Below are positions 11,244 to 43,043 of a stretch of DNA of 64,000 nucleotides, in pieces; the first letter of the stretch is position 1; the number at the start of each line of letters is the position of its first letter. The notes under the pieces are model-generated. The model ran no database searches. It worked only from the letters and a program-made list of their open reading frames with translations, and was not told the origin of the DNA. Made by a program: the position numbers and the translations under genes. This DNA is from Flavobacterium johnsoniae. GTDB lineage: Bacteria; Bacteroidota; Bacteroidia; Flavobacteriales; Flavobacteriaceae. The DNA lies in the NCBI RefSeq assembly GCF_030388325.1, contig NZ_CP103794.1:3410001-3474000 (forward strand). The letters are read 5' to 3'.

Positions 11244-11248
11244 AATTA

Positions 11249-12658: not shown

Positions 12659-12670
12659 AGTGTTGAAACT

Positions 12671-16151: not shown

Positions 16152-16183
16152 AATATTTATGGTGATATATCACCATAAATATT
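16152..16183. promoter_or_regulatory. 32-bp perfect palindrome, probable operator of the XRE regulator
   Basis: Perfect dyad symmetry centred at 16167/16168 with core GGTGATATATCACC (16161-16174) and AT-rich arms. It lies 40 bp before the XRE start. A possible promoter overlaps it: TTG at 16130-16132 and, 21 nt later, TATTTATG at 16154-16161 (one mismatch to TAnnTTTG). A dimeric regulator bound here would block that promoter, so autorepression is likely. Confidence 0.75.
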
Positions 16184-16223
16184 TTTAATAAAAGTCAAAT
16201 ATTGTTCTTTTAAATAAAACATT

Positions 16224-16484
16224 ATGGCTAAGGAGGAAATATTAAAAGCATATAAAAAGGCTTTTGGCGAAAATCTAAAAAAGATTAGGGCAGAAAAAAT
16301 AAAAACTCTTAGTGGAGTAGACAGTACAACTAAGTTTGATTCGAGTAATTACCATAAATATGAGATTGGTACTGGAAATCCAACTCTTGAAACAATAATT
16401 AGTATTGCAACAGGGCTTGGGATTCATCCAAAGGAATTACTTGATTTTGATTTCGATTTAAAAAAATTAGATATTCACAGATAA
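16224..16484 (+). CDS. XRE-family helix-turn-helix regulator
   Basis: An 86-residue DNA-binding protein consisting of one HTH domain: the segment from FGENLKKIRAEK to NPTLETIISIATGLGIHPKELLDF has the helix pattern of Cro/cI-type regulators. The recognition region (STTKFDSSNYHKYEIG) is slightly longer than usual. The gene has its own palindromic operator and a terminator right at its stop codon, so it is transcribed separately from sspE downstream. It likely controls itself and perhaps the phosphorothioation island; the exact palindrome is not repeated in front of sspE. Confidence 0.85.
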   Translation: MAKEEILKAYKKAFGENLKKIRAEKIKTLSGVDSTTKFDSSNYHKYEIGTGNPTLETIISIATGLGIHPKELLDFDFDLKKLDIHR

Positions 16485-16507
16485 GATGCTTTGAGCATCT
16501 TTTTTTA
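16483..16507 (+). terminator. intrinsic terminator overlapping the XRE stop codon
   Basis: AAGATGC (16483-16489) pairs with GCATCTT (16495-16501) around a 5-nt loop, followed by six or seven T. It isolates the regulator gene from the sspE operon. Confidence 0.85.
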
Positions 16508-16522
16508 TGATCATAAATTTTA

Positions 16523-16579
16523 AAAACAGGTATAAATACTGTAATGATTTTTATTATAAAGAATTATTTTGCCTGTTTT
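16523..16579 (+). promoter_or_regulatory. sspE promoter region with flanking inverted repeat
   Basis: AAAACAGG (16523-16530) is repeated inverted as CCTGTTTT (16572-16579). The right arm directly follows TTATTTTG (16564-16571), a near match to the -7 consensus about 28 nt before the sspE ATG. The same octamer occurs before sspB (19296-19303). This is a candidate operator around the promoter; it is not proven. Confidence 0.3.
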
Positions 16580-16598
16580 AAACCGTCAAATAAAATTT

Positions 16599-18347
16599 AT
16601 GTCATTTTTCCCTCCATTATCAGTTGCCGATGCAATTGAAAAGATAGATTATAATCAATATTTATTGCCTGCTATTCAAAGAGATTTTGTTTGGTCAAGT
16701 TCAAAAATTGAAATGCTTTTTGATTCATTGATGCAAGGTTATCCAATTGGCTCAATGCTTTTATGGCGCGTAAATGGTAAGAATACCGAAAATCAAAGAT
16801 TTTACGGAATTTTGAAAAAATATCGTGAACGTTATTTAATAAGGTCAGAGGAAGTTTCTACCAAAAACATACCGAGTTTTGAAGTAGTCTTAGATGGGCA
16901 ACAAAGGTTAACAGCTTTATATTTAGGTTTAAAAGGATCATATGCTTTTAAAGGCTATAACTTGGCATGGAAAGATACTGAGTATTCAATACCAACTAGA
17001 TATCTATATTTAAATTTAAGATATAAAAAGAATAAACGAAATGACTTAAATGACAGTGATGATGACAGAAGGTATGAATTTACGTTTTTAAAGCCTGAAG
17101 AAATATTAAATATTGATGAAGACAACAAATGGTTTAAAGTAGGTGATATTCTTGGAATAAAAGGTACATCTCAATTGAATACATATTTTAAAAATAATAA
17201 TATAATTTGTGATGAAGCTCAGGAAATATTAAGCAGACTTCATGATATTGTACATTTAGAAAAATTAATTCACTATTATCTTGAGGAAAGTTCTGATTTC
17301 ACTAGAGCTTTAAATATTTTTATTAGAGTTAATTCAGGAGGCATTTCACTCAGTTACTCTGATTTAGTTATGTCTACGACTATTATGGGATGGCAGAATC
17401 TTGATGCAAAAAAAGAAATAAATGGATTAGTGGACGAATTGATAAAGGAATATGGTTATGCTGTAAATAAAGATTTTGTTCTACGCACTTATTTAGTACT
17501 TTACAGTGATGATATTAAATTTAGGGTTAAAAACTTTTCTATAAAAAATGCAAAAGAATTTGAAGAATATTGGAAAGAAATAAAAACTACAATTAGAGAA
17601 GTTTTTCAACTTGTAACTGACTTTGGTTATGCACCAAGTACTTTGACATCTTTAAATGCGCTGCTACCAATTGTGTACTATTTGTACAAAACAGATAGGG
17701 TACAAGGCTTTTGCCAGAAAGTTAAATATAAAAAAGATAGAGAATTAATAAAGAGATGGTTGCATGTCGCTCTATTACATCAAATATTTGGTGGACAAGC
17801 AGAAGGCGTCTTAAAGGCAATTAGAGATACCGTGAAAAAAGACATTGAAAAAGGAGCCGAAATTTTCCCTGCACAGTCAATAGCAAGCCGATTGTCCAAA
17901 ACTAATAAGTCAATTACAGTTGATGAAGAATTTATAGACGGACTTTTATTTACAAGTAAAGATAGTAGGTATGCGTTTCCCATCTTAGCTCTACTATTTC
18001 CTCACTTAGATTACAAAAACAGAGATTTCCATTTAGATCATTGTCACCCTATTTCGCATTTTAATGAAAAAAAACTAAAATCAAAAGGTATTTTACTAAC
18101 TGATAAAAATAAAGAATATTATACTGAAGCGGACTATTTTAACTCTATACTTAATTTGCAAATGCTCGATGGAAATGAGAACAAATCTAAAAATTCGAAA
18201 GATTTGAAAATATGGATTGATGAAAATAATATTTCTTTAAAAGCTTACCACTTACCTAAAGAAGTTGATCTGGGTGACTTTCCAATTTTTTTAGAAAAAA
18301 GAAGTGAATTATTACGCAAAGTTTTGACTGAAGAATTGACATTTTAA
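16599..18347 (+). CDS. sspE: SspE-like phosphorothioate-sensing nickase (DUF262-DUF1524)
   Basis: A 582-residue effector. The N-terminal DUF262 domain has the LPAIQRDFVW entry and the NTPase signature DGQQR (D99-R103). The C-terminal DUF1524/HNH domain has DHCHP (D480, H481, H483) followed by a distal asparagine cluster (NLQMLDGNENKSKNSK). In Ssp systems SspE senses the sulphur-modified host DNA through an NTPase domain and nicks or damages unmodified phage DNA. The ATG at 16599 is preferred to a TTG at 16569, which lies in the promoter region. The DUF262-DUF1524 architecture is shared with GmrSD restriction enzymes; the sspBCD genes downstream favour SspE. Confidence 0.85.
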   Translation: MSFFPPLSVADAIEKIDYNQYLLPAIQRDFVWSSSKIEMLFDSLMQGYPIGSMLLWRVNGKNTENQRFYGILKKYRERYLIRSEEVSTKNIPSFEVVLDGQQRLTALYLGLKGSYAFKGYNLAWKDTEYSIPTRYLYLNLRYKKNKRNDLNDSDDDRRYEFTFLKPEEILNIDEDNKWFKVGDILGIKGTSQLNTYFKNNNIICDEAQEILSRLHDIVHLEKLIHYYLEESSDFTRALNIFIRVNSGGISLSYSDLVMSTTIMGWQNLDAKKEINGLVDELIKEYGYAVNKDFVLRTYLVLYSDDIKFRVKNFSIKNAKEFEEYWKEIKTTIREVFQLVTDFGYAPSTLTSLNALLPIVYYLYKTDRVQGFCQKVKYKKDRELIKRWLHVALLHQIFGGQAEGVLKAIRDTVKKDIEKGAEIFPAQSIASRLSKTNKSITVDEEFIDGLLFTSKDSRYAFPILALLFPHLDYKNRDFHLDHCHPISHFNEKKLKSKGILLTDKNKEYYTEADYFNSILNLQMLDGNENKSKNSKDLKIWIDENNISLKAYHLPKEVDLGDFPIFLEKRSELLRKVLTEELTF

Positions 18348-18385
18348 ATTTTTATATAAAGTTATAGTTTAAAAAAAAAAATTAA

Positions 18386-19162
18386 ATGAATTCATCAGAA
18401 ATAATTGAACAAATTAAAATTGGATTAACTAAAGGATATAATCAAAACTTACTTTTATTAAGTTCATCCAGTTATTTTATCGAACAGGTTCGAGAATATT
18501 TACTGACAGTTAATGTTGCTCAGCAACTTTTAGAATGGAATAAATATCATAATTATAAAATCCAATTAGAATATCCCATTTTGCAATTTTATAATAATGC
18601 GTTTCTTTCTCATGACTTAGACGTTACTGACATATTTAATATGGTGTTACTTCAGCGCCAAACTGGACATTCACCGACTAATAAATTAAATCAAAAAATT
18701 GATATTGCGATCACTCGAGAAGAAACAGATTTTCAAGCATTTTCACAGGACCGTACTATTTGTGGAATAGAATTAAAAGCTATTAATAAAACTGACAATG
18801 AAATCATAAATGATGCAAAGAGGATGGGTAGTGCAATGACACTTACAGACAATATTTCTTCAAACAGTATTCAATATTGTTTTTGTGGTTTTCTTCGAAG
18901 GTTTGATAAGTGTGAGGAATTAGTGACAGACATTTTTATCAAAACTAAAATAATTCAAGAACAAAATCGCTGGGATAGTATCTGTACAAATTTGTCAATA
19001 GAATTTTCAACACTTAATTTTTCTGTAGAAAAATTTGATGTAGTTAATACTTCTCTGGAATTAATAGCTGATATTCATAATAAAATGGGTAGCGACTTTT
19101 CTGAAGTAGCAAATGCAACAGGAATTATAGTAGGTTATATTTTATCTATCAACCGAAAATAA
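18386..19162 (+). CDS. putative PD-(D/E)XK nuclease-fold protein of the Ssp island
   Basis: A 258-residue protein with no family I can name. Residues E62 (LEYP), D106 (KIDIAI) and E129-x-K131 (GIELKA) are spaced as in the PD-(D/E)XK nuclease fold, and the strand KIDIAI leads into the GIELKAI strand as expected. It starts 38 bp after sspE on the same strand, so it is probably its operon partner. It could be an additional DNA-cleaving effector. The motif is short, so the fold assignment is tentative. Confidence 0.6.
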   Translation: MNSSEIIEQIKIGLTKGYNQNLLLLSSSSYFIEQVREYLLTVNVAQQLLEWNKYHNYKIQLEYPILQFYNNAFLSHDLDVTDIFNMVLLQRQTGHSPTNKLNQKIDIAITREETDFQAFSQDRTICGIELKAINKTDNEIINDAKRMGSAMTLTDNISSNSIQYCFCGFLRRFDKCEELVTDIFIKTKIIQEQNRWDSICTNLSIEFSTLNFSVEKFDVVNTSLELIADIHNKMGSDFSEVANATGIIVGYILSINRK

Positions 19163-19295
19163 AAAAGGGGAGGGTAAATTATCTAATACTCTCATCTACA
19201 ATCTGTAGCTTAATTGATTTAATATAGAAATTGATAATATTTAAAACTTTAATAAAACTATATTTTATAAATCGGAAACAAGTTTCTTTTTTTCG

Positions 19296-19303
19296 TTATT
19301 TTG
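19296..19303 (+). promoter_or_regulatory. candidate -7 element upstream of sspB
   Basis: TTATTTTG (one mismatch to TAnnTTTG) lies 32 nt before the sspB ATG in a 173-bp gap. The identical octamer lies at the same kind of distance before sspE, which suggests separate but similar promoters for the effector and modification operons. No clear -33 element is seen. Confidence 0.25.
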
Positions 19304-19335
19304 TATAATTAGAATAAATTCATATTAAATTTAAA

Positions 19336-20217
19336 ATGATTGAAGAAAAACAAACTATAAAATTCACTTTTTCAGGACATGACACATTTCATTGTCGTCA
19401 TTTGTGGTTAAAGAAAGGATATGATTTTGTTAAGAAAGGGAATAAATTTTCTCAATTAAACGCTGTTTTAGAATTGGGAGTGGGTAAAAATATGGTTTCT
19501 GCTATCAGTTTTTGGATGAAAGCATTTGGGTTATTAGACAATGACGGGCATCTAACAGAGTTTGCGAACTATATTTTTGACGATGAAATGGGAAAAGACC
19601 CTTACATTGAGGATGAAGGTACTTTATGGCTTTTACATTATATATTAGTAAAGAATGACAATGCATCCATTTATAATTTAATATATAATGATTTTAGACG
19701 TGAAAAAATTGAATTTTCAAAGGAACATTTTATTGCATATGTTTCAAGAAAGATTGATGAGAATAACTTAACTCAAATTAGTAAAAATACAATTGCTAGT
19801 GATTTTGAAGTATTTGTAAAAATGTATACAATACCGGAAAATATTAAAGATAAGGAGGAGAACCTAACAGGACTATTGGCAGAACTTAATTTGTTGCACA
19901 AAGAAAAACTAACCTTTAGTGTAATCAACGATGAAAAAAATAATATTCCTGATGAAATATTACTCTTTTCTATTCTTGATAATGATGATTTTAGTAATTC
20001 GATCAATTTATACTCATTAGAGCATGAAAAAAATCAAGTCGGTAGTGTCTTTGCAATTAATAGGGCAGGAATTGTAAATAAAATTGAAGGAATTGCATCG
20101 GATACTAATTTTAAAAAGTATGGCATTACTTATAACGATCATGCAGGAATTAAAGAATTGCAATTTAGAGATAAACCAAACAAATACGAAGTATTAAACA
20201 TATATTATGCTAAATAA
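19336..20217 (+). CDS. sspB: SspB-like DUF4007 protein of DNA phosphorothioation
   Basis: A 293-residue protein opening with the DUF4007 hallmark FSGHDTFHCRHLWLKKGYD (residues 12-30; H15, R21, W24). In Ssp systems SspB is the DUF4007 component with DNA-nicking activity that prepares the strand for sulphur insertion. Length is normal. It overlaps sspC by 11 bp, and the order sspB-sspC-sspD is the known one for single-strand phosphorothioation. No DndB, DndD or DndE homologue is present, so this is not a Dnd system. Confidence 0.85.
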   Translation: MIEEKQTIKFTFSGHDTFHCRHLWLKKGYDFVKKGNKFSQLNAVLELGVGKNMVSAISFWMKAFGLLDNDGHLTEFANYIFDDEMGKDPYIEDEGTLWLLHYILVKNDNASIYNLIYNDFRREKIEFSKEHFIAYVSRKIDENNLTQISKNTIASDFEVFVKMYTIPENIKDKEENLTGLLAELNLLHKEKLTFSVINDEKNNIPDEILLFSILDNDDFSNSINLYSLEHEKNQVGSVFAINRAGIVNKIEGIASDTNFKKYGITYNDHAGIKELQFRDKPNKYEVLNIYYAK

Positions 20218-23200
20218 ATTTACAACATCTGTAAATATTATACGAGATGAGGAGAAGGAAATAAATTATATCCCAACTCATAATGCTATACGTTTAGCAT
20301 CACAAATCGTAAGTGATTTTAAAAAAGGAATTCGTTCCTTCAATATTATTGGTTCTTACGGGACAGGTAAAAGTTCATTTTTGCTTGCTTTTCAAGAAAG
20401 CTTATCAAATAGAAAAAAATATTTTAATGTAGCTTTTTTACCAAATCAGGAATATGGTAAAATCAACATTATTGGAGAATACAGGTCTTTAATAGATGTT
20501 TTCATCGACTTATTTGACTTAGAGTCAAAAAATACTACTGCTGAAACTATATTTTCAGAAGTTTTTAATAGATATTATGCTTTAGGGCAAAATCCGTTGT
20601 TAATCATAACAATTGATGAGTTTGGTAAGTTTTTAGAATATGCTTCAAAAAACAACCCCGAAAAAGAATTATTTTTCTTGCAGCAGTTTTCAGAATTTGT
20701 AAATGATACTTCTCATAATATAGTTTTACTAACATCTGTACATCAAAATTTTGATGCTTATGCTTTTTCATTAGATTACACTCAAAAACAAGAATGGACA
20801 AAAGTTAAAGGCCGTTTTAAAGAAATTACTTTTAATGAGCCCATCGAACAATTATTGTTTTTAGCTGCAGAACATCTAAACAAACTGCCATCTTCAGACA
20901 GAGAAAATACACAGATTAAGGAAGCTAACAAGCTTTTGTATGATTCAAAAGCATTTAACTTTAATGAAGATTATATTAGCGAAATAGCAGAAAAATTGTA
21001 TCCATTAGATGCAATTTCTGCGTATGTTATCACTCAATCTCTACAAAAATATGGACAAAATGAGAGGTCTCTTTTTACATTTTTAGAGTCTACCGATTTT
21101 GCGGGTTTATTTCAGTTCAAGCAATTAAAAAAAGGTTTTTATTCATTGCCAGAGATTTATGATTATTTAACTTTTAATTTTTACTCTTTTCTTAATTCGA
21201 AGTATAATCCAGATTTTAATTCTTGGAAGTCTATAAAGAATGCATTAGAAGTTGTCGAAGCTTCATTCGAGACAAATTTAAGTGAATATTCAAAACTAAT
21301 TAAAAGTATAGGAGTTTTAAATATTAATACCGGTGCCAGTGCGGTTTTAGACAGCGGTTTTTGGGAAAAATACTCGGAGAAAGTTTTATCAGTTAATAAC
21401 TCAAAAGAGCTATTAAAGAATCTAGTTGATAAAAAAATAATAGTTTACAGAAATTATTTGAAGAGATTTATTCTTCATGAAGGTACAGATTTAGATATTG
21501 AGCTGGCATTGTTGGAGGCAGAAAATAAGGTTGATAATATCACTGATGTTGTTACTATGCTAAACAAGTATTATAACTTGCATCCTGTTTTAGCAAAGAA
21601 GGTAATGTTTGAAGTTGGAACTCCAAGATTATTTGAATATAAAATATCACATTTTCCTATTGATGAGATACCTCAAAATGAAATTGACGGATTTATTAAT
21701 TTAGTTTTTAATGATAAAGATATTTTAGATGAAGTAAAAATAAAATCTGCCGAGAGCCAAGAAGCTATTTTATATTGTTACTATAAAAATGCTAAACAGA
21801 TAAAAGAGCTTTTGTTTGAAATTGAGAAAACGAGAAAAGTGATTGCAGAAAATGAAAATGATAAAGTTGCAACTAGAGAATTAAATAATATCGTTCAGCA
21901 TCAAATTAATCTTTTAAATCATAAAATTCTAAATAACTTTTATGGAACAAATTCTGAGGTTGTTTGGTTTTATAAAGGAAGCCAATTAGAAATTAAAAGT
22001 AAAAAAGATTTAAACAGTAAGCTCTCTGAAATATCGGATTCAGTTTATTGTAACTCACCAATTTTTAAAAATGAGTTGGTAAATAAACATAAGATTTCGA
22101 CATCAATACATGTTGCAAAAAAAAATTACTTAAAAGCATTAGTTACTAATTGGAATAAATTACAATTAGGATTTCCAGAAGACAAATTTCCTGCAGAAAA
22201 AACAATTTATTTATCTCTGCTTGAAAATAATGATATATATCTATATTCTGATAAAATTAGTGATATAATAAAGCCTAACGAAAGAAATAGGTTCAATTTT
22301 TTATGGGACGAATCCCTTAATTTTCTTGAAAGTGCTAAAATCGGAAGAAGAAAAGTAAGTGAATTTGCTGATGTTTTAAGTAAAAGACCTTACAAACTTA
22401 AACAAGGTCTTATTGATTTATGGATTCCCACTTTTTTGTTTATTAAGCGTGACGATTTTGCGTTATTTAGCAATAACGGATATATTGCGAATCTTAGTGA
22501 TGAAGTACTTGAGTTGTTAATAAAAAAACCAGAAGATTTTGAGATAAAAACATTTGCGATTGAAGGCGTTAAATTAGATATTTTTAATAGATACAGAATT
22601 TTTTTAGATCAGACAACAAAAGAGAAAATATCAAATGACAGTTTTATAGAAACTATAAAACCGTTTTTAACTTTCTATAGAGATTTACCTGATTATACAA
22701 AAAATACTAATCGTTTATCTAAAGAAGCTCTCGGAATTCGTAGCGCAATTTTTTTGGCAAAAGATCCTGAACATACATTTTTTGAATCATTTCCTAATGC
22801 ACTAAATTTTAAAATTCAACAGATTCAATCCTCTGCAGAGAAGTTACAATCCTTTTCGATCAAGCTACAAGATTCAATTAAAGAAATAAGAAATTGTTAC
22901 GATGAATTAATTAATAGAGTAGAAGATTTTATAAAAAGTGATGTTGTAGGAGAAGATTTTGATTTTGAAGATTATAAAAACAATTTACAAACTAGATATA
23001 AAAAATTGAGACGACACTTATTATTGCCCAGTCAAAAAATATTTGTTCAACGATTGGATTCTCAAATTGATGATAAAAAAGCATGGCTTAATTCATTAGT
23101 TCAAGCACTCATTGGTAAGACGTTAGACAAAACTACAGATGAAGATGAGCTTTTAATATATGATAAGTTTAAGTCTATGATTATGGAATTAGATAGTTTA

Positions 23201-23428
23201 ACTTCACTTTCTAAATCTGATTTTAATGAAGAAAAGGAAGATGTTTATGATTTACAAATTAATACCTTTTTTAAAGGTCTAAGTAAAAAAATTATTCGTT
23301 TACCAAAAGAAAAGAAAGAAGAAGTTTTTAAAATACAAAAAGAGTTAGAAAATGTTTTGTCTAGAGATAGTTCTTTAAATATTGCAGCATTGACTAATCT
23401 TTTAAAAGAAATGCTTAAAAATGAGTAA
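20207..23428 (+). CDS. sspC: SspC-like large P-loop ATPase of DNA phosphorothioation
   Basis: A 1073-residue protein with Walker A GSYGTGKS (49-56) and Walker B IITIDEF (D137, E138) in an N-terminal ATPase domain. It is followed by a long, highly charged region with predicted coiled-coil stretches (for example around residues 540-600 and the last 200). In Ssp systems SspC is the ATPase that couples the nicking and sulphur-insertion proteins. It overlaps sspB by 11 bp and sspD by 8 bp, so the three are translationally linked. G+C is extremely low: one 60-base line (21901-21960) has only 12 G/C. Confidence 0.85.
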   Translation: MLNKFTTSVNIIRDEEKEINYIPTHNAIRLASQIVSDFKKGIRSFNIIGSYGTGKSSFLLAFQESLSNRKKYFNVAFLPNQEYGKINIIGEYRSLIDVFIDLFDLESKNTTAETIFSEVFNRYYALGQNPLLIITIDEFGKFLEYASKNNPEKELFFLQQFSEFVNDTSHNIVLLTSVHQNFDAYAFSLDYTQKQEWTKVKGRFKEITFNEPIEQLLFLAAEHLNKLPSSDRENTQIKEANKLLYDSKAFNFNEDYISEIAEKLYPLDAISAYVITQSLQKYGQNERSLFTFLESTDFAGLFQFKQLKKGFYSLPEIYDYLTFNFYSFLNSKYNPDFNSWKSIKNALEVVEASFETNLSEYSKLIKSIGVLNINTGASAVLDSGFWEKYSEKVLSVNNSKELLKNLVDKKIIVYRNYLKRFILHEGTDLDIELALLEAENKVDNITDVVTMLNKYYNLHPVLAKKVMFEVGTPRLFEYKISHFPIDEIPQNEIDGFINLVFNDKDILDEVKIKSAESQEAILYCYYKNAKQIKELLFEIEKTRKVIAENENDKVATRELNNIVQHQINLLNHKILNNFYGTNSEVVWFYKGSQLEIKSKKDLNSKLSEISDSVYCNSPIFKNELVNKHKISTSIHVAKKNYLKALVTNWNKLQLGFPEDKFPAEKTIYLSLLENNDIYLYSDKISDIIKPNERNRFNFLWDESLNFLESAKIGRRKVSEFADVLSKRPYKLKQGLIDLWIPTFLFIKRDDFALFSNNGYIANLSDEVLELLIKKPEDFEIKTFAIEGVKLDIFNRYRIFLDQTTKEKISNDSFIETIKPFLTFYRDLPDYTKNTNRLSKEALGIRSAIFLAKDPEHTFFESFPNALNFKIQQIQSSAEKLQSFSIKLQDSIKEIRNCYDELINRVEDFIKSDVVGEDFDFEDYKNNLQTRYKKLRRHLLLPSQKIFVQRLDSQIDDKKAWLNSLVQALIGKTLDKTTDEDELLIYDKFKSMIMELDSLTSLSKSDFNEEKEDVYDLQINTFFKGLSKKIIRLPKEKKEEVFKIQKELENVLSRDSSLNIAALTNLLKEMLKNE

Positions 23429-24530
23429 GGTAAGACATGTGTTAGGAATATCCGGAGGGAAAGATAGTGCTGCTTTGGCAATATATATGAAAAAAAAATA
23501 TCCTGATTTGGATATAGAATATTATACTTCAGATACAGGGAAAGAATTGCAGGAAACTTATGATTTAATCTCAAATTTGGAGACCTTTCTTGGGAAAAAA
23601 ATAACTGTTTTAAAAGCAGTAAATGACAGTTCTGAAGATAATCCATTCGATCATTTCATAAAATTATTTAAAGGATATTTACCATCATCAAATGCGAGAT
23701 GGTGTACCAAAAAATTAAAGTTAGATCCGTTTGAAAATTTTGTTGGTGATGATCCCGTTATTTCGTATGTTGGAATTAGAGGTGATGAGGATAGGGAAGG
23801 CTATATTTCAAAGAAAAACAATATTCAATCGATCTTTCCTTTTAGAAAAAGTATATGGAGTGAGGATGTAATTTCAAAAGTTCTTTCTAATAAGAATATA
23901 TCATTAACAAGTAAAATACTTTCTTCACAGCCAAAAAATGACAAAACCGAAAGAATATTAGAGCTTATAAATACTGAAATTTCGACAAGTTTTTCTCAAA
24001 GTCAAAAACTTAATGCATTGTTAGATTTAGGAATTAAAGAATTTAATGCAATTGTTTTTCAATTTTTGAAAACTACTGAATATCCTTTATCAACTGAAGA
24101 ATTGTTTCCATTAATTGAAAATGAAGATATTCTAGTTCGAGATGATATATTTAAATTACTTGAAGATTCTGGAGTAGGTGTTCCAGCTTATTATAAACAA
24201 GTAGAATTTGAAATCAATGGAGAAAAGTCCTCATATGCAAGAAGTCGCTCAGGTTGTTTCTTCTGTTTCTATCAACAAAAGATTGAATGGATATGGTTAT
24301 ATGAACAACACCCGGATTTATTTTATAAAGCATTAGAATATGAGAAAGATGGATATACTTGGATGCAAGACGAAAGTTTAGAGGAAATTATAAAACCAGA
24401 GCGTGTAGCTAAAATTAAAGAAGATCACTTAAAAAGAACCAATAAAAAAGCACAAAATAAAAAATCCCCCTATCTTCTAGATTTATTAGATGATGCCGAA
24501 GGAGAAGGATGCGCTTCTTGTTTTATATAG
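23421..24530 (+). CDS. sspD: SspD-like PAPS reductase/ATP pyrophosphatase family protein
   Basis: A 369-residue protein with the PP-loop SGGKDS (10-15) that binds ATP, and four cysteines in two pairs (C279-x-x-C282 and C364-x-x-C367) suited to an Fe-S cluster, as in DndC/SspD. The enzyme is thought to activate the DNA backbone and accept sulphur from the cysteine desulfurase SspA. It follows sspC with an 8-bp overlap. The middle ~150 residues carry a helical insertion between the PP-loop domain and the first cysteine pair. The second cysteine pair is at the extreme C-terminus. Confidence 0.88.
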   Translation: MSKVRHVLGISGGKDSAALAIYMKKKYPDLDIEYYTSDTGKELQETYDLISNLETFLGKKITVLKAVNDSSEDNPFDHFIKLFKGYLPSSNARWCTKKLKLDPFENFVGDDPVISYVGIRGDEDREGYISKKNNIQSIFPFRKSIWSEDVISKVLSNKNISLTSKILSSQPKNDKTERILELINTEISTSFSQSQKLNALLDLGIKEFNAIVFQFLKTTEYPLSTEELFPLIENEDILVRDDIFKLLEDSGVGVPAYYKQVEFEINGEKSSYARSRSGCFFCFYQQKIEWIWLYEQHPDLFYKALEYEKDGYTWMQDESLEEIIKPERVAKIKEDHLKRTNKKAQNKKSPYLLDLLDDAEGEGCASCFI

Positions 24531-24532
24531 AT

Positions 24533-25630
24533 ATGAAATACACAATTACTAAATGGACAGTCGAAAAATTACTGTTAATGCAATCGCAAGGGGACATAAT
24601 TTTAAGTCCACCTTATCAAAGAAATTTTATATGGTCTATTAAAGATCAACAATACTTAATAGATTCTATTATCAAGGGAAGTCCTATACCTAATTTTTTT
24701 CTTCTTGAAAAGGCTGATGGAAAATTAGAAATGGTAGATGGACAGCAAAGATCTCGGACGATTTTGAGTTTTATCTCCGGTCAATTTACTGACTTGGAAG
24801 GTAAAACTTATTCTGCGCAAGATCATCCTACCTTTTTAAATTATGAGTTTCCGGTAACAATAATAACAGATACAGAAGGTGAACAAATAGAGAAGTTTTA
24901 TGCATTAGTAAATAAAACAGGAGTACATTTAAATAAACCTGAGGTACGTAAGGCAGATTATTATGACACGAATTTCTTAAATCTTATAAATGAAATATCG
25001 ACATCAAAAAAAGTAGAAATTTTGAACTTATTTTCTGAGGGGTCACTTAAAAGAATGAATGATACTGATTTTATTTCAGAATTAATCGTTCTTATAAAGA
25101 TCGGGCATGTTGATAAAAAAAATCATATTGATGAGTATTTTAAGAGTGATATTAGAACCGATGAAGCATCAGAAATTAAAATAACATTCAATAGTATTTT
25201 GGATAAGATTAATCTTTTGAATAAAACTTTTGAAGTTAGTAAAACAAGATATAAGCAACGGAATGATTTTTACACTTTATTTAATTTTATTCTGGATAAT
25301 TCTACAATTGACTTAGATGTGCTAAAATATTTTTATAAAATTTTAGTATTAATTTCAAAAGATATAAAACCCACACAAGATAACTGCGAACCTTTAAAAG
25401 AATATGCTAGAAACTGTGTAACCCAATCTAATTCAAAATTAGCAAGAGAAAATAGATTAAACTTTTTTAATGAGCTATTATTAAATAAAAATTTAAAAGC
25501 AAATAAAACACAAAAGTTAATTTTAAAATTTTACAATTTAGATGCTAAAAATATAGTTAAAGTTGGAGCATACACAGTTATTGACATCGAAGAATTAAAT
25601 AAAATTAAAAACATAACCTTTAAAAGATGA
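24533..25630 (+). CDS. second DUF262 protein, without HNH domain
   Basis: A 365-residue protein with the DUF262 core: WTVEKLL, SPPYQRNFIW and VDGQQRSRTIL (DGQQR at about residues 69-73). The C-terminal half is helical and has no DUF1524/HNH motif, so it should hydrolyse or bind nucleotide and perhaps sense modified DNA without cutting it. The ATG at 24533, 2 bp after the sspD stop, is used; an upstream ATG at 24509 overlapping sspD by 22 bp is possible. Its stop overlaps the ATG of the kinase gene (ATGA), so the two products probably act together. It is not part of the minimal Ssp set. Confidence 0.8.
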   Translation: MKYTITKWTVEKLLLMQSQGDIILSPPYQRNFIWSIKDQQYLIDSIIKGSPIPNFFLLEKADGKLEMVDGQQRSRTILSFISGQFTDLEGKTYSAQDHPTFLNYEFPVTIITDTEGEQIEKFYALVNKTGVHLNKPEVRKADYYDTNFLNLINEISTSKKVEILNLFSEGSLKRMNDTDFISELIVLIKIGHVDKKNHIDEYFKSDIRTDEASEIKITFNSILDKINLLNKTFEVSKTRYKQRNDFYTLFNFILDNSTIDLDVLKYFYKILVLISKDIKPTQDNCEPLKEYARNCVTQSNSKLARENRLNFFNELLLNKNLKANKTQKLILKFYNLDAKNIVKVGAYTVIDIEELNKIKNITFKR

Positions 25631-26541
25631 AATTTGTAGATGGCAACATAAAACTATCAGATAATCAAGATGAAAATTATATTGAAATTGATAATGAAGA
25701 TTTCTTTCTTTCTTACTTGAATGCGGATTTTAAATCTAATAAAGGGGCAAGTTCTAATCTATTTATTTTGCATGATCCGAATGGAGATACGGAGGACAGG
25801 GTAATTAAAATCTGTAAAACCCCATTAAATCCGGCTGCCAGGACTCAAGATAAACGTATAACTAGATTTAAAAGAGAGATTAAGGCATTTACTCTCGTTA
25901 AAAAGTATAATTTATCAGGCGTTGTAATATTTTTCGGAAATGGAGAAGTTGAAATTGCGGACCAAACTTTTTTATTCATAATTTTAGAAAAAGCAGATAA
26001 TGATTTAGCTAATTATCTAGAAAAAAATAATTTTAAATTTTCATTAAACCAAAAGCTTTCATTTTGTGTTAGTATATTGAATGGTATTAAGCAGCTTCAT
26101 GATAAAGGAATTTATCATAGAGATATTAAACATGACAATATTTTAATAGTTAACAATGAATTCAAAATCGCAGATTTAGGACTTGTGCAATTTCGAGAAA
26201 AGGATTCAGATATAGACTCTGCGAATGAAAAAATTGGACCTATAGGTTGGTTATCTCCGGAAGCAACAAATAAGATGCTCACAAAAAATAAAAAAATTGG
26301 AAATATCTATGATTGCGATATTAATTACAAATCAGATATATTTCAGTTAGGTAAATTATTTTGGTATATTTTTCAAGGAAATTTACCCTTGGGGCAATTA
26401 ATTTTGAATGATAAAAAATCTGGCGAATCTGACATTTTTGAAATTATATTTTTAATGTTGCAATATGATAAGCAAAGACGACCTGAAATAGATCAAATCA
26501 ATTTACTGTTTGATCCAATAAAAATTAGATTAGCAGTTTAG
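25627..26541 (+). CDS. Hanks-type (eukaryote-like) Ser/Thr protein kinase
   Basis: A 304-residue soluble kinase. Conserved residues are present: K61 in VIKICK, E84 of helix C, the catalytic loop HRDIKHDN (H164, D166, K168, N171), and DLG (D183) in place of DFG, followed by an APE-like SPEA. The glycine-rich loop is degenerate (NKGASSNLF). There is no membrane segment or sensor domain, so input probably comes from its partner. It overlaps the DUF262 gene by 4 bp and ends the modification operon. A kinase coupled to a DUF262 protein in an Ssp island suggests infection signalling (inference). Confidence 0.85.
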   Translation: MKFVDGNIKLSDNQDENYIEIDNEDFFLSYLNADFKSNKGASSNLFILHDPNGDTEDRVIKICKTPLNPAARTQDKRITRFKREIKAFTLVKKYNLSGVVIFFGNGEVEIADQTFLFIILEKADNDLANYLEKNNFKFSLNQKLSFCVSILNGIKQLHDKGIYHRDIKHDNILIVNNEFKIADLGLVQFREKDSDIDSANEKIGPIGWLSPEATNKMLTKNKKIGNIYDCDINYKSDIFQLGKLFWYIFQGNLPLGQLILNDKKSGESDIFEIIFLMLQYDKQRRPEIDQINLLFDPIKIRLAV

Positions 26542-26564
26542 TTTAAAGTAATTAATCAATTTTT

Positions 26565-28967
26565 TTATTCTTCTAAAGCTCCCATCAATTGTTCCATTCC
26601 AAAGTTCAATAAAAAATCGCTATAATAACTATCGAATACATCCATTATATATTCATCTATAGTTATGTCTACATCAACACCATCCTTTACTCTGGTCATA
26701 GTATAGTTTCTTCTTTTTGTTATCATGTATAGAAACAGTGTGTGAAAATAAACGGAAGAAATATATTTTCGCTGTGCTGTGACAATTTGTTCTTCATTCT
26801 TCAATTTTGATCGATGACTTAAGAATACATGACTGTCTAGATTTATGAAGATTTCCTCTAATTTATCACCTTCTGAAGAAGGATACATGACAGTTTTTCG
26901 ATCCATAGTGATTCCCCTTTCTTCTAATACAGCCCAGTCTTTTTCGTATATTTTTTGAAGTTTAGGCAGTCCGATTTGATCAAGATCTTCTTCTTGTTCT
27001 AGAACTGGTTCTTTTATAGATTCTTTATCAGTGATTTTAACTAAGACAATTTCCTCAAAAATTTTACCTGGGGAAGTTAAAGAGGCCTTAATTTCAATTT
27101 CGTCGCCTATTTGAATATTGTTAGTTGGTTCAAGTGTAACTTTAATTGTTCCTTTATTAGGACTGCTTTTAGTCACATTAAGTAATCCGGATACCTCGGT
27201 ACTTACTCCTGCTTGGTCACCTCCATCTTTTTTATCTCGTTTAATTTTTAAAAAAGATAATTGTAGCTCTCCAGGTTCATCAGTCCTGTCAAAGTAGTCG
27301 TTATCTATATCTGAATCAAATTTAATAATTTTCTCACCATTCTTTGGCAGGCTAATAATATTAATTCCTTCTTTTTTATGGAATAAATCAAATTTTGTTG
27401 GAAATCTTTGAGGTAAAAAAGGTCTTTGTTCTAACTTCGGTTTGGACGTACTGGGTGCGTTTTTTTTGAGTTCTTCTTTTTTTTCGTCTAATTTTAAAGT
27501 ATTCTGAAGTAATTTAAAAAGCTCGCTGTCCTTAGGTAAATTTTTAGCAAAAGATTTAATTAGTTCAGAAGTGTCTTCGCTTTCTAAACCAATAGTTTCT
27601 TTTCTTCTTCTGTTAATTTCATCTAGCTGACTTTTTCGTAATTTTTTACCTAAATAATCTCGTAAAGCATTTGCTTCATCACCATGTTTTAGTCTATCAC
27701 GAGATGCCATAAATAATTCTTCTCTAAAATCCGGATTCATAGACGTACAATCGACATGAATTAATAGATAATCTTTTAACAGATTAAATTTTAGTGTTCT
27801 TGTGATAAATTCTGAGGAATAATTTCCATGAACTTGTCCGTTAATAGAAAACATGACAGACATATTATTTTTAAAAAATCTACTCCTAATAATATCTTTA
27901 CTTTTTTTTAGGTCATGTTTATCTGTTTTAGGTTTAAAAACATAACAGGTAACTTTAGCCTTTCCAAATAACTCATCATCGTAATCTTCTGAAAAATAAG
28001 TATCTATGTAGTCACTTTGTGAATCTTCAAGTCTTCTCTTCAACCCAAATAAATCAAGTTCCAAAACTTTATTATTTGGATACCGATCTTTATTGTCAAC
28101 GGTTAGGATAGGCAATACCGGTTCGAAAAGAAATTCATTTAAACTTTGGTTTAAATCTTGAGCAAATCCTGAATAGCCAACGGGAAATTGGTAAGAATAC
28201 ATTTTAATTATTGTACCGGTCTTAAATTTTCTTCCATTTAACTTTAAATCTAATTCAGTGATTGGAAAATTTGGAATTTCATTTTCGATTTTTAAAAATT
28301 CAAAATGACTTGAACGTCTATTTTCACCAGATTCACTGATTCTTCTCTGCCTAATTAGTGTAAATCCAAAATTACCTGAATTATCAAATCGTTTTGATCC
28401 TATAAGTTGGTATCTTCTTTTCCCGCAGAAAACTAAAGCACCGCTTCCGCCCATATTGTATTTACCTTGTACAAATTGAATATTAATTTTATTTCCCCTT
28501 ACCAAAGAAAGAAAGGTATTTTCAAATTGATTCGGATGCTGGCCTTCTCCATTATCATAAATTATAACTGAGGTGTTTTTTGGCGGTCCATCGGCAATAA
28601 TTTGAATGTCTTCTGATTGTTTTCGTCTATTTTGTTTTAGATCCCAATTTTTATAGTCAGGATAAAACATTTTTATGGCTTGCTCCATTGATTGTGGAGC
28701 ATCATTTGAAACTGGGGAAATATTTTTTTCTAAGCACTTTTTTGTTAAAATTGCATCAATCGAATTAGTTACCTTCTCAACTAAAGCTGCGATAGGGCTA
28801 GATTGTTGGTTTCTAACAATTCCAAACATATTTTCGTTACCACCAAGCGGAGCCCAATTTTTATCAGCAAATTTATCAGGATATTTATGTAATAATTCTT
28901 CAACCTTATCTTCAGTAGAACATTGATACAGTTCTTGAAACAATTTCTCTTTACTAATTTCTCCCAT
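26565..28967 (-). CDS. GHKL (HSP90-like) ATPase, phosphorothioation-island associated
   Basis: An 800-residue protein with an N-terminal GHKL ATPase: N-box EKVTNSIDA (E64, N68, D71), DNGEGQ (138-143) and the glycine lid MGGSGAL (172-178). The middle is charged with a proline-rich linker near 500-520, and the C-terminal part is unassigned. It lies 3 bp downstream of sspA on the reverse strand, so both are cotranscribed, and it converges with the kinase gene. Large GHKL ATPases of this kind act as DNA-engaging clamps in MORC, MutL and gyrase. Its role here is unknown, and it is not in the minimal Ssp set. Confidence 0.8.
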   Translation of the reverse strand: MGEISKEKLFQELYQCSTEDKVEELLHKYPDKFADKNWAPLGGNENMFGIVRNQQSSPIAALVEKVTNSIDAILTKKCLEKNISPVSNDAPQSMEQAIKMFYPDYKNWDLKQNRRKQSEDIQIIADGPPKNTSVIIYDNGEGQHPNQFENTFLSLVRGNKINIQFVQGKYNMGGSGALVFCGKRRYQLIGSKRFDNSGNFGFTLIRQRRISESGENRRSSHFEFLKIENEIPNFPITELDLKLNGRKFKTGTIIKMYSYQFPVGYSGFAQDLNQSLNEFLFEPVLPILTVDNKDRYPNNKVLELDLFGLKRRLEDSQSDYIDTYFSEDYDDELFGKAKVTCYVFKPKTDKHDLKKSKDIIRSRFFKNNMSVMFSINGQVHGNYSSEFITRTLKFNLLKDYLLIHVDCTSMNPDFREELFMASRDRLKHGDEANALRDYLGKKLRKSQLDEINRRRKETIGLESEDTSELIKSFAKNLPKDSELFKLLQNTLKLDEKKEELKKNAPSTSKPKLEQRPFLPQRFPTKFDLFHKKEGINIISLPKNGEKIIKFDSDIDNDYFDRTDEPGELQLSFLKIKRDKKDGGDQAGVSTEVSGLLNVTKSSPNKGTIKVTLEPTNNIQIGDEIEIKASLTSPGKIFEEIVLVKITDKESIKEPVLEQEEDLDQIGLPKLQKIYEKDWAVLEERGITMDRKTVMYPSSEGDKLEEIFINLDSHVFLSHRSKLKNEEQIVTAQRKYISSVYFHTLFLYMITKRRNYTMTRVKDGVDVDITIDEYIMDVFDSYYSDFLLNFGMEQLMGALEE

Positions 28968-28970
28968 AAA

Positions 28971-30122
28971 TTAATTTGCTAATTGGATTAAAGTTTCTTT
29001 AATGTTACTAATAACAGTCAATATTTCTTGCTCAGTGTTTTTATTGCTCAGGCTAAATCTGATAGCAGAGAATGCATCTGTATCATTTAGGCCCATTGCT
29101 AATAAAACATGTGATGGTTCAAATAATGCAGAGGTACATGCTGAACCGTTACTAACTGCTATTGTTTGATATCTATCTATAAACATGTTGGCATCAAAAT
29201 TTGGAAAGCAGGCATTAATAGTATTATACAGACGATGCTCTTTACTGCCATTAATAAAGACACCTCTGATGTTAAGTAATTCTGCTTCCAGAATATCTCT
29301 CAGCGATTTAATATAAGTGGTATTCTCTTTCATTTCCAAAGATGCAATTTCACATGCTTTAGCAAAACCAACAATTGCTGGAACGTTCAGAGTACCACTC
29401 CTAAGCCCGCGCTCATGTCCTCCGCCATGTTGTGTAGGAGATATCTGCCTTGTTGAAACTGTTTCTTGATTAATATATAATGCTCCTATTCCCTTTGGGC
29501 CATAAAATTTGTGTGCAGAAAAACATAATAAGTCTATATAATTAAATTCAGTAATGTTAATTGGTAATTTACCAACTGCCTGAGTAGCATCAGTCATTAA
29601 CAGTACTTTCTTAGAATTAGTAATTGTACTAATTTCCTTAATTGGTTGTATAACACCGGTTTCATTATTTACCCACATGATACAAACTACTAGAGTATCT
29701 TGCCTAATTGAAAGAATAAGATTCTCTAAATCTAATAATCCATTAGGATTGACGGGAAGATACTCAATTTCAAACCCAACGGTTTCTAAAAATTTGCAAG
29801 TATCTAAAACGGCCTTATGTTCAGTTTGCAAGGTTATTATATGTCTTTTCGAATTATTTGGATTTAACGCGATTCCTTTTAATGCAATATTTATACTTTC
29901 TGTGGCACCTGAAGTAAAAATAATTTCTTTCGGATCGCAATTGATCAAAGATGAAACTATTTCTCTAGAATTTTCTACAATTTTTTTTGTTGCAAGTCCA
30001 AAATGGTGTGTACTCGATGCATTTCCATAATTATTTTTAAAATAGGGGTACATTGCCTCAATTACACGATCATCAATAGCTGTTGTTGAATTATTATCAA
30101 GATATATTAATTCGTTATTCAT
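28971..30122 (-). CDS. sspA: cysteine desulfurase, SspA/DndA/IscS type
   Basis: A 383-residue PLP enzyme that takes sulphur from cysteine. It opens with YLDNNSTT, has SAHK with the PLP lysine K205, H102 in the EHKAV motif, and the catalytic C329 in NGSACTS. IscS-like length and loop are seen. In Ssp systems SspA passes sulphur to SspD. Here the gene is convergent to the sspBCD operon, about 4.4 kb away and on the other strand, and leads a two-gene operon with the GHKL ATPase. An IscS housekeeping role is possible by sequence alone, but the neighbours make SspA much more likely. Confidence 0.87.
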   Translation of the reverse strand: MNNELIYLDNNSTTAIDDRVIEAMYPYFKNNYGNASSTHHFGLATKKIVENSREIVSSLINCDPKEIIFTSGATESINIALKGIALNPNNSKRHIITLQTEHKAVLDTCKFLETVGFEIEYLPVNPNGLLDLENLILSIRQDTLVVCIMWVNNETGVIQPIKEISTITNSKKVLLMTDATQAVGKLPINITEFNYIDLLCFSAHKFYGPKGIGALYINQETVSTRQISPTQHGGGHERGLRSGTLNVPAIVGFAKACEIASLEMKENTTYIKSLRDILEAELLNIRGVFINGSKEHRLYNTINACFPNFDANMFIDRYQTIAVSNGSACTSALFEPSHVLLAMGLNDTDAFSAIRFSLSNKNTEQEILTVISNIKETLIQLAN

Positions 30123-30141
30123 TTTAAGTGTATAAATTTTG

Positions 30142-30169
30142 TTTCTAAATTAACTAAATAATTTAGAAA
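30142..30169 (-). repeat. 11-bp inverted repeat just upstream of sspA
   Basis: TTTCTAAATTA (30142-30152) pairs perfectly with TAATTTAGAAA (30159-30169) around a 6-nt loop, 20 bp before the sspA ATG at 30122. It could be an operator or leader hairpin controlling the sspA-GHKL operon. It does not resemble the GGTGATATATCACC operator of the XRE gene. Confidence 0.5.
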
Positions 30170-30380
30170 ATTCCGAAGTGATTTTATATTTTCTAAAAAA
30201 AATATTAGTTTTTTATTTACAATATCTTAGTTTATTTGATAGGCAAATAAAATTCGGAATAATTTTCAATTCATTTTGTTCATTTTGACAAAAATTAGCA
30301 ACTATTAAAACTCTATACAAAAAATATGAAAAGAGTGATAATGGCTTAATTTTTAGTAAAATGAAATTTTGAGTTTAAAC

Positions 30381-32060
30381 TTATCCCTTTTTTTTAATCT
30401 GTTCTATAAAAAAAAATGTAGGCATTCCAGTTTTACTTTTAAAAGCCTTAACAAATCTTTGTGTACTGCTAAAGCCGACTTCGGCGGCTAAAGCTTTATT
30501 TGTATAGTTACGTACAAGTTTATCATTATAAAGTAATGACATAATATAATCTATTTTGAGATCATTAATATATTCGGTAAATCCTTTTTCTTTGTAATGA
30601 CGAATAATTGATGAAAGATAAGTTGGATTGGATTTAAATGCAGCAGACAATTTTGAAAGGCTCCAGTCATTTTCTAAAAATTTCTTATCTATTTCAAATT
30701 TTTCCAGCTGATTAAGTATAGTTGAGACAGTTTCAGGATTTATATCTGATAAAACTGGTTTTTCAATTTTTTGCCTGTATTTAGTTTTATTCTCTGAAGC
30801 AGAAATCTGTAACATCTGCTCATCAAACTTTTGACGATATATTTTTCGGTTCTTATAATATCTATATGTTAAGACAACAAAAGACAAGAAAAGGAGGGAA
30901 GTGAAACCGGTTAAAACTGAATACTTAAAATTTTTACTTACCAGCTCATTTTTCAAACTTTGCTTCTCAAACATTAATTCTTGGGTATTGTATTCCTTGT
31001 TGATTTTTCCAACCAAATATTTGAAAGTCTCATTAAGTACTTTATCAGCCTTAAGCAATTGATCAATGTAATATAATTGCAAATCCTGATTTTCTTGATT
31101 TTTGTAATATTTAATAAGAATCTCGTACATTTCCCTTTGGTCAGTCCGTAGATACCCTCTCGTATTAAACAGCTGATCAACCTTTTCAAAGTAAGGAAGT
31201 GCTTTTTCATATTGTCGGACCTCCCAATAACTTTTACCAATGTAGAAATAACCAACTGATTCATTACCAAAATCTTTCTTTTCTTTTAATTCTTCAATTG
31301 AAGATTCTATGCTTTTAATTGCAGATGAATAATTTTTCTGAAAGAAGTCGTTAATACCCTCAGAGTGGATAAAATAAACTTCCATTTCTTTAATATCCAA
31401 TTTCTGGCACTCAACAAGTCCCAATGCATTTGTATTGGAGCATAATCCATAATTACCGATTCTGTTATAGCACAATCCCAAAGAATGAAGTGAATTTAAG
31501 TAGGCTCTGGAATTTTCATTTTTAAAATAGTCGGTACATTCTCTAAGTAATGAAATTGCTTCATCGTAATAACCAAGATAGTATTTAACCAAAGCAATAT
31601 GATACTTCAGTTTGTAGATAAGGTATTTGTCAGCTGTCTGTGAAATATAACTGTCTGCAGTTATGAAGTTGTCAAGTGCGTTATTTTGCTTTTTAAGTAG
31701 ATAATACACAATTCCTTTTGATAAGTAAGCTGATCCTATTAAAGCTTTATCATTTGTTTTTTTTGCAGTATATATCATACTGTCGGCATAAATTAACCGC
31801 ATACTGTGTGGAGATTCATGAAGAAGATTCTGATATCCATTAATAATTTCCTTGTAATTTTTTTCAACTTTAGCCTTGCGAAGATATTCAAACATATATA
31901 CAGAAGATCGGGCACTATCATTTCGAAGTTCATATATTTTCTCATCAAGATATTCATAACTCTTTCTTTTTAGAGAGTCAGGATATTTTTGAAAATGTTT
32001 CTGTGCTTCACACCATGAAAAAACACATATTAGTACTAAGATGAAATGTTTTTTGCTCAT
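30381..32060 (-). CDS. TPR-containing AraC-type transcriptional regulator, membrane-anchored
   Basis: A 559-residue protein with an N-terminal signal segment (FILVLICVFSW), a periplasmic TPR region (about 60-370), one membrane helix (YSVLTGFTSLLFLSFVVLTY), a short coiled segment and a C-terminal AraC/XylS HTH domain ending in FVKAFKSKTGMPTFFF. This layout is a common one-component sensor in Flavobacteria. The ATG at 32060 is chosen because the signal peptide starts there; the open frame extends to 32129. It is divergent from the lipoprotein gene at 32398, whose promoter carries direct repeats it could bind. Confidence 0.85.
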   Translation of the reverse strand: MSKKHFILVLICVFSWCEAQKHFQKYPDSLKRKSYEYLDEKIYELRNDSARSSVYMFEYLRKAKVEKNYKEIINGYQNLLHESPHSMRLIYADSMIYTAKKTNDKALIGSAYLSKGIVYYLLKKQNNALDNFITADSYISQTADKYLIYKLKYHIALVKYYLGYYDEAISLLRECTDYFKNENSRAYLNSLHSLGLCYNRIGNYGLCSNTNALGLVECQKLDIKEMEVYFIHSEGINDFFQKNYSSAIKSIESSIEELKEKKDFGNESVGYFYIGKSYWEVRQYEKALPYFEKVDQLFNTRGYLRTDQREMYEILIKYYKNQENQDLQLYYIDQLLKADKVLNETFKYLVGKINKEYNTQELMFEKQSLKNELVSKNFKYSVLTGFTSLLFLSFVVLTYRYYKNRKIYRQKFDEQMLQISASENKTKYRQKIEKPVLSDINPETVSTILNQLEKFEIDKKFLENDWSLSKLSAAFKSNPTYLSSIIRHYKEKGFTEYINDLKIDYIMSLLYNDKLVRNYTNKALAAEVGFSSTQRFVKAFKSKTGMPTFFFIEQIKKKG

Positions 32061-32397
32061 ATTTAAGGTAGTTTGGGAACTCAATTTCTCAATAAAGTTA
32101 CCGCAAACTGTCCATCGGTGCTTTACCAATAAATTTACATGAAATTAACTCAAAAATAATATAAACATTTGGATTTTAGTGAGTTGTTTGTGAAAAAAGG
32201 AGTGTGGATTTATTGAAAATCCATACCATATTTACGGTAAATCCATACCCATATGGTTGTAGGAAACTTTTCAACGAGATAGTTTTGTTTCGAATTCAAA
32301 AGCGAAAATGTTTGGCATGGTGCCGAATTAAAGTTCCGCTTATCCGGATGAAATGAACTGAGAAGAAATTCTCATTCACTCTCATACACCCTTTACG
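32061..32397. other. 337-bp divergent intergenic region
   Basis: It separates the TPR-AraC gene and the lipoprotein gene. Beyond the promoter and direct repeats, TGGATTT and AAATCCA form a small hairpin around 32205-32223. No additional gene is supported. Confidence 0.6.
32218..32287 (+). promoter_or_regulatory. promoter with two direct repeats upstream of the lipoprotein gene
   Basis: A TTG at 32257-32259 and TAGTTTTG at 32280-32287 (20-nt spacer) match the Bacteroidota -33/-7 promoter fully. Just upstream are AATCCATACCATAT (32218-32231) and AATCCATACCCATAT (32240-32254), 22 bp apart start to start, as expected for an AraC-type activator. The leader of about 104 nt contains a 7-codon mini-frame (ATG at 32309) before the ATG at 32398. 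Confidence 0.7.
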
Positions 32398-36550: not shown

Positions 36551-36671
36551 AATTCAGCGGAGGAATAATCCCTGTTCTCTCTGGTGCGGTATGGCTTTAT
36601 GTGACAAGAAAAAAGAGTTGCAACAGTGATATTCCTCTGCTTTTTAAATAAGTGTATTGAAAACTTTAAAA

Positions 36672-37019: not shown

Positions 37020-37031
37020 ACACAGATCCTT

Positions 37032-37361: not shown

Positions 37362-37380
37362 TAGTAAAAATGAAGAGGAG

Positions 37381-40545: not shown

Positions 40546-40559
40546 TAAAGGAAAATATT

Positions 40560-41180: not shown

Positions 41181-41184
41181 CGCC

Positions 41185-41820: not shown

Positions 41821-41824
41821 AACG

Positions 41825-43027: not shown

Positions 43028-43043
43028 CCTAAAAAGATAAAAT

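Follow-up and report, generated by a model that had tools for sequence, protein, structure and literature searches.

Introduction

Which effector enzymes does a DNA modification system serve, and can they be exchanged while the system itself stays in place? This question is raised by a gene island of Flavobacterium johnsoniae located at positions 16224-30122 of a 64,000-nucleotide stretch of its genome (RefSeq assembly GCF_030388325.1, contig NZ_CP103794.1, positions 3,410,001 to 3,474,000 of the forward strand; hereafter the window). The island encodes the SspABCD proteins, a family predicted to place phosphorothioate (PT) marks in DNA. PT systems, in those parts of the literature that we draw on, couple the mark to an arm of nuclease type (SspE, SspFGH, DndFGH, DndI, or Pbe). 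The locus described here would broaden this scheme, with one PT core common to two slots whose outputs can be exchanged, among them a protein kinase and a SIR2 enzyme (both without an obvious DNA target) and a putative GHKL clamp from the class to which the eukaryotic MORC proteins belong. We consider it somewhat probable that the PT mark of this island is a self-mark serving two exchangeable effector cassettes.

Results

The island contains ten open reading frames (ORFs), all placed as in an earlier reading made from the letters alone (the sequence-only reading), and forms an AT-rich block with a G+C content of 28.7%, compared with 37.3% in the rest of the window. On the plus strand, the ORFs of sspB (19336-20217; DUF4007, PF13182 at 248.6 bits, PADLOC SspB at 348 bits), sspC (20207-23428; an ATPase, PADLOC SspC at 1422 bits) and sspD (23421-24530; a PAPS-reductase-like PP-loop protein, PF01507, PADLOC SspD at 314 bits) overlap and constitute one operon, and this SspC is the only one found in the genome. 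Next on the same strand are the genes for a protein with a DUF262 domain only (24533-25630; PF03235 at 67.9 bits, with PPYQR and DGQQR motifs; a start at ATG 24533 is likelier than at 24509) and for a Ser/Thr protein kinase (25627-26541; PF00069 at 84.7 bits, with HRDIKHDN and DLG motifs). The minus strand carries the cysteine desulfurase that an SspABCD system requires (SspA or IscS; 28971-30122), directly upstream of the gene for an 800-residue GHKL ATPase (26565-28967) and separated from it by three bases. PADLOC scores the desulfurase at 516 bits as SspA and at 514 bits as DndA, two families that are indistinguishable by score. The signature motifs of the DUF262-only, kinase and GHKL genes are intact. 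On all these points, including the four core identities and the convergent layout with sspA and the GHKL gene on the opposite strand, the sequence-only reading holds; taken as a whole, its observation is partly confirmed and its interpretation partly supported.

The two additions to the core behave as separate units in a sister locus found in Flavobacterium hibisci and F. cutihirudinis (L099 and L145; L and G numbers are our handles). This locus matches the window with 96.2% DNA identity over positions 16422-24537 and with 92.7% over 26564-32115, and between these stretches it holds 3.3 kb in place of window positions 24538-26563: a gene of a deoxyribosyltransferase-like cluster, a small gene, and a DUF262 gene with a SIR2 gene. 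The breaks in DNA identity coincide with the sspD/DUF262 junction and the GHKL stop codon, and the sister locus keeps the GHKL gene while its kinase cassette has been replaced as a unit. The DUF262-kinase pair and the GHKL gene are independent cassettes, which we assign to slot 1, directly after sspD, and to slot 2, nearer sspA (where sspA is present), respectively.

A constant ssp core with varying modules is also seen across related loci. Eighty named loci, extending at most 10 kb past sspC, were fetched by SspC alignment and 26 more were taken from other genomes; neighbouring genes were clustered and representatives were scanned with profiles. From 112 neighbourhood sets we removed five GHKL-only loci, three duplicates (G018, G130, G507), 15 sets with an SspC scoring below 700 bits against that of the window (G049, G185, G186, G237, G268, G284, G286, G289, G326, G328, G343, G371, G406, G421, G640), and 12 sets with less than 7.5 kb beyond sspC, which left 77 loci of the close SspC clade, the window included. 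Slot 1 is occupied by DUF262 with a kinase, DUF262 with a ThsA-like SIR2 protein, a set of 547-, 371- and 279-residue proteins, a 745-residue GHKL/HATPase protein with two further genes, a GIY-YIG/DndB pair, or a nucleoside deoxyribosyltransferase-like set. The options for slot 2 are a Pbe-like set (its helicase PbeA-like at 990 bits, its AAA protein scoring 62 bits for LmuB and 56 bits for PbeC), a set of PLD, GHKL and helicase genes (with a helicase that scores 75 bits for PbeA), or the 800-residue GHKL protein.

The slot-2 modules exclude one another. Exactly one is present in 59 of the 77 loci (Pbe-like in 32, PLD/GHKL/helicase in 11, 800-residue GHKL in 16), none in 18, of which four carry a PglZ-like or related set, and two in no locus, compared with 11.6 loci expected by shuffling; none of 10,000 shuffles gave as few. 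The shuffle takes no account of the relatedness of the loci, and L099 and L145, 99.996% identical over 23 kb, were counted as two though they represent one event. When L145 is dropped, two modules are found in 0 of 76 loci against 11.3 by shuffle, and GHKL together with another slot-2 module in none against 8.5. The maps of the 15 low-SspC loci likewise contain no case of two slot-2 modules. Slot 1 is looser, with one set in 50 loci, two in seven and none in 20; the kinase pair occurs in 13. Mapped on a tree of SspC with 76 rows, the 58 rows that have a slot-2 state require no fewer than 12 changes of module, and the 49 rows that have a slot-1 state no fewer than 26, these counts being made without a shuffled-label control on a quick tree that has some long branches and support from the Shimodaira-Hasegawa-like approximate likelihood ratio test only, and that excludes L139 for its broken sspC.

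Examples of the PLD nuclease-like, GHKL and helicase combination are L126:15195-17956 and L142:17160-18809, and L118:14339-16098 provides a GIY-YIG and DndB pair, which brings a component of Dnd systems into an Ssp island. Other Ssp islands have an extra SspC-like ATPase (L160:14338-22512, L147, L156, L158, G185, G406). Among these, an SspB-like gene of one cluster is present in L147, L156, L158 and L160, and a gene of the PglZ-like cluster in L156, L158, L160, G185 and G406, which we read as an Ssp/BREX-like hybrid arm.

The slot-2 protein of the window is a GHKL ATPase with an S5-type module, resembling Hsp90, MORC and MutL. It was recognized by its motifs, by fold matches and by PF13589 at 23.2 bits, slightly below the 25-bit cut-off. 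A test for MORC/paraMORC-type proteins found the GHKL motifs and the S5-type module, and our claim is restricted to the wider GHKL+S5 class; residues 490-660 are modelled too poorly for a domain to be named. Comparison with PDB sequences gave no match at E<=1, PADLOC returned no family, and NCBIfam yielded two weak matches far below cut-off. In the phylum of the window, SspC scores at least 300 bits in 22 of 395 genomes. The GHKL protein has matches in 13 of the 395, and the six genomes with at least 53% identity (own included) are all SspC genomes (6/6, hypergeometric 1.5e-8; with the own genome excluded, 5/5 and 2.6e-7). Used by itself as the query against 72,556 plasmid records, the GHKL protein gave seven matches, and gene contexts cover the four closest of these. 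The three that reach 42% identity or more come from Hymenobacter, Ensifer adhaerens and Devosia neptuniae, two of them alphaproteobacterial, and all three lie in annotated DUF4007-ATPase-PAPS-reductase, that is sspBCD, loci; the Hymenobacter locus also has DUF262+SIR2, and no sspA was seen in its stretch. Because its close relatives fall in SspC genomes and in plasmid sspBCD loci, the GHKL protein is, judged by linkage, an Ssp partner.

Linkage to Ssp was seen among these close relatives; the family is large, with at least 2822 relatives at E<=1e-20 among 7993 candidates scored in a large protein set. The plasmid match H4 (27%) lies outside any Ssp locus, and no core ssp gene was found within the 20 kb fetched around relatives at 34-37% (L179-L181, three genomes) or at 23-27% (L182 and L183). 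At L179:8933-15205, a 37% relative is located beside a type II cytosine methyltransferase and a restriction enzyme. In all nine loci in which both genes were found, GHKL and sspA adjoin (coordinates 4-25 apart). PbeA is absent from the window's genome: the best match there is 29.6 bits, with none at 1e-40, a threshold at which PbeA is found genome-wide in 0 of 17 GHKL-bearing genomes and in all three Pbe controls.

For the slot-1 protein, profile matches of at least 400 bits occur in three of the 395 genomes (own included), the next match being 130 bits, and since all three strong matches lie behind sspD, the DUF262-only protein and its kinase are by linkage likewise partners of Ssp. In all 13 loci that have a kinase of the window's cluster, the kinase gene comes directly after a DUF262 gene. 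The DUF262-only protein is a candidate PT sensor of the ParB/Srx fold: its model (predicted local distance difference test, pLDDT, 88) has an N-terminal domain like those of SspE, BrxU and ParB, and at the level of sequence and model this DUF262/ParB-fold domain combines PxYQR with DGQQR. In Ssp islands, a SIR2/ThsA-like gene is found directly behind a DUF262 gene in nine of nine loci (L111:15361-16221 and eight others), and this pair is likely a PT-linked abortive-infection cassette. With DUF262-only, kinase and GHKL genes linked to sspBCD, the island is larger than SspABCD(E), as the sequence-only reading had proposed; of the four added genes that it named, these three show conserved co-occurrence with sspBCD, and the fourth is a Tin-like gene that, among the Ssp loci examined, is present only in the window and its near-identical sister.

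Upstream of sspB, the plus strand carries a small HTH regulator (16224-16484; Pfam HTH_19, 1.4e-07), a GmrSD-type (DUF262+DUF1524) type IV restriction enzyme (16569-18347) and the Tin-like protein (18386-19162); the regulator belongs to the insert described here and lies outside the Ssp core. The name sspE, initially given to 16569-18347, was rejected. PADLOC scores this gene at 638 bits as HEC-05, a synonym of BrxU (PMC11411939), and at 24 bits as SspE, and its best PDB sequence match is BrxU (7p9k, 313 bits, near full length with residues 21-563 of 592; 7P9K and 7P9M are BrxU structures, PMC8565348), the same search giving no SspE chain at E<=1. The PT-sensing Tyr of PxYQR, reported as Y30 in SspE and Y25 in DndI (PMC11662687) and as Y63 in E. 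coli SspE (PMC13251355), is replaced by Ile (PAIQR), as in BrxU. Given these scores and this residue, the gene is BrxU-type and not SspE; its GmrSD_C Pfam score of 16 bits is below the cut-off of 23. The distinction matters, since treating the gene as SspE would mislead experiments. Among 26 SspC-bearing genomes, a search for SspE at E<=1e-10 returned one partial match of 46 bits (G289) and no true SspE.

The product of 18386-19162, previously labelled PD-(D/E)XK-like, matches the PADLOC Tin profile over its full length (residues 3-249, 8.5e-22). It has no useful match among PDB sequences (best E 0.47) and a match in only one of 394 other phylum genomes, at 30% identity. Tin of phage P2 acts against T-even phages. 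The BrxU-type and Tin-like genes recur, among the Ssp loci mapped, only in the near-identical Flavobacterium sister element, and they were rejected as Ssp parts; because of this limited recurrence and the rarity of Tin in the phylum, we take them as an embedded insert before sspB, similar to BrxU/HEC-05 and Tin and without a part in the Ssp machinery.

The island is cargo of a conjugative element, as the sequence-only reading had suggested. Genes of a Bacteroidota-type conjugative element lie to its right (36077-48280, plus strand; three ORFs tested: TraG P-loop at 783 bits, TraJ and TraM), followed by a serine recombinase gene (48502-50031, plus strand; PF00239/PF07508), and a coupling protein lies to its left. 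The stretches in common with F. cutihirudinis begin 11 kb outside the left edge of the window and reach, in pieces, position 50022, where homology ends in the last bases of the recombinase gene, and both sister genomes have a TraG 97% identical to that of the window. We conclude from this sharing that the element carries the ssp island as cargo. Window positions 8595-15694 hold further cargo, SusC/SusD-like and prolyl-oligopeptidase-like genes (named by reading the sequence, not by profile), which resembles the sister element only in part (67-73%). A second TraG in the same genome (G000:C1:4839263-4841722), 87% identical to that of the window, hints at a second conjugative element.

Discussion

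How could one PT mark serve two cassettes? In our proposal, SspABCD would place PT marks as a self-mark, and slot 1 would provide a nuclease-less ParB-fold DUF262 sensor together with a partner enzyme, which is a Ser/Thr kinase in the window and of SIR2 type in sister loci. This putative sensor keeps the PxYQR (PT-sensing) and DGQQR (NTPase) motifs known from SspE and DndI. SspE is described as reading PT, hydrolysing GTP and licensing its own nuclease (PMC13251355). In the window the reader domain stands alone, with a kinase as its neighbour (a SIR2 enzyme in sister loci), and this arrangement suggests an SspE divided into two proteins, of which the output is exchangeable; PT-modulated hydrolysis of nucleoside triphosphates might release or activate the partner upon encounter with an unmarked genome. 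We infer PT sensing, activation of the kinase, and a restriction function of slot 2, in which the GHKL+S5 ATPase could hold DNA as a clamp or draw it into a loop, in the way suggested for MORC-like proteins of restriction-modification systems. Those encoded in restriction-modification operons have been suggested to loop DNA between the mark and the cut site (PMC2292703), and GHKL taking the place that Pbe-like or PLD/GHKL/helicase modules have in related islands fits such a role, with PT as the mark.

More broadly, the islands might constitute a two-slot platform, in which two readers share one PT mark, a split SspE with its exchangeable enzyme and a restriction arm that can likewise be exchanged. 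The MORC-like GHKL clamp, the Pbe-like set and the PLD/GHKL/helicase set would then be mutually exclusive restriction arms, and DndB would perhaps link the PT mark to the GIY-YIG nuclease. We hold this wider proposal tentatively, at slightly less than an even chance. It agrees with, and is made less surprising by, a review according to which PT modification and restriction clusters are exchangeable and two restriction components may share a single modification cluster (PMC12707154). If true, PT would gate protein phosphorylation in anti-phage immunity, and a restriction factor of MORC type would depend on PT. Two questions, the role of MORC-like proteins in restriction and the gating of a kinase by an epigenetic DNA mark, become testable on a cassette of one or two genes.

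Three other explanations must be weighed against two exchangeable cassettes served by a self-mark. The island could be a plain defence island, in which unrelated defence genes accumulated next to sspABCD without any of the added ones using the PT mark. Two of them, the BrxU-type and the Tin-like gene, fit this idea, being absent from the other Ssp loci examined beyond the sister and, for Tin, nearly so from the phylum. Random accretion would not be expected to link the GHKL and DUF262-only families to Ssp loci, nor to produce the one-of-three use of slot 2, and we regard this explanation as improbable.

The GHKL protein and the DUF262-kinase pair could alternatively serve or regulate modification itself, in the manner of DndB in Dnd systems, by acting on loading, on the choice of targets or on the PT level, rather than act as effectors. 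The adjoining GHKL and sspA genes, the placement of DUF262 and DndB in one superfamily (PMC11662687) and the DndB+GIY-YIG pair as an option for slot 1 would all be accommodated; most of the 77 loci, however, have the same core and lack each of them (the kinase pair is in 13, GHKL in 16), and GHKL substitutes for sets carrying helicase, PLD or Pbe-like genes. This role, too, appears unlikely to us. The sequence-only reading had instead joined the kinase and GHKL protein as signalling layers of a larger Ssp variant. GHKL is indeed present in five of the 13 kinase loci, whereas eight lack it, and 11 GHKL loci have no kinase; the comparison of kinase loci with the others (11 of 64 with GHKL) gives a Fisher P of 0.13. 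Since the sister locus, moreover, keeps GHKL and swaps the kinase cassette, a single pathway is not supported, and we judge a joint layer very improbable. Two exchangeable cassettes read against one self-mark thus remain our preferred account.

We found no description of DUF262-kinase, DUF262-SIR2 or 800-residue GHKL proteins as Ssp partners in the accessible text of the open-licence PMC literature. The available portion of PMC10853773 mentions neither GHKL, MORC nor SIR2, its kinase passages concerning DndF, and PMC12839542 mentions neither GHKL nor MORC.

Comparison with known systems places the island among PT-dependent and other modification-dependent defences. It shares with SspABCD-SspE the core and a DUF262 protein with PxYQR and DGQQR; here, in contrast, no true SspE was found, and the DUF262 domain stands alone with a kinase (or SIR2 in sister loci) as partner enzyme. 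SspABCD-SspFGH follows the same plan of a modification core with a separate, multi-gene restriction arm (PMC8092258), whereas the proposed arm here is a single GHKL ATPase, the likeness described being one of layout. The Pbe module, pbeABCD being a PT restriction branch (PMC12707154), is represented by the PbeA-like helicase and AAA protein set in 32 of the 77 related islands, whereas the window's genome is without PbeA. Nuclease-less DUF262 proteins with a second protein are also known from the modification-dependent restriction systems TgvAB and GrwAB (PMC11411939, PMC12137116), in which the partner is a DUF262-DUF1524 nuclease rather than a kinase or SIR2 enzyme. Kinases have been linked to PT before, as S/T/Y kinase domains proposed to be co-effectors in some Dnd systems (PMC10853773), but these are fused to DndF and do not form a pair with a DUF262 sensor. 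For the GHKL protein, VcSduA, a Shedu protein with an N-terminal GHKL ATPase, offers a GHKL ATPase with a clamp-like middle domain in phage defence, yet in VcSduA one polypeptide also carries a PD-(D/E)xK nuclease, and there is no PT core (PMC12137116). The MORC/paraMORC GHKL ATPases of restriction-modification systems (PMC2292703) likewise combine GHKL and S5 modules and are linked to an epigenetic mark, and a 37% relative of the window's GHKL gene stands beside a type II restriction-modification pair; the available text of that study mentions neither PAPS nor Dnd, whereas the mark in the Flavobacterium island would be PT.

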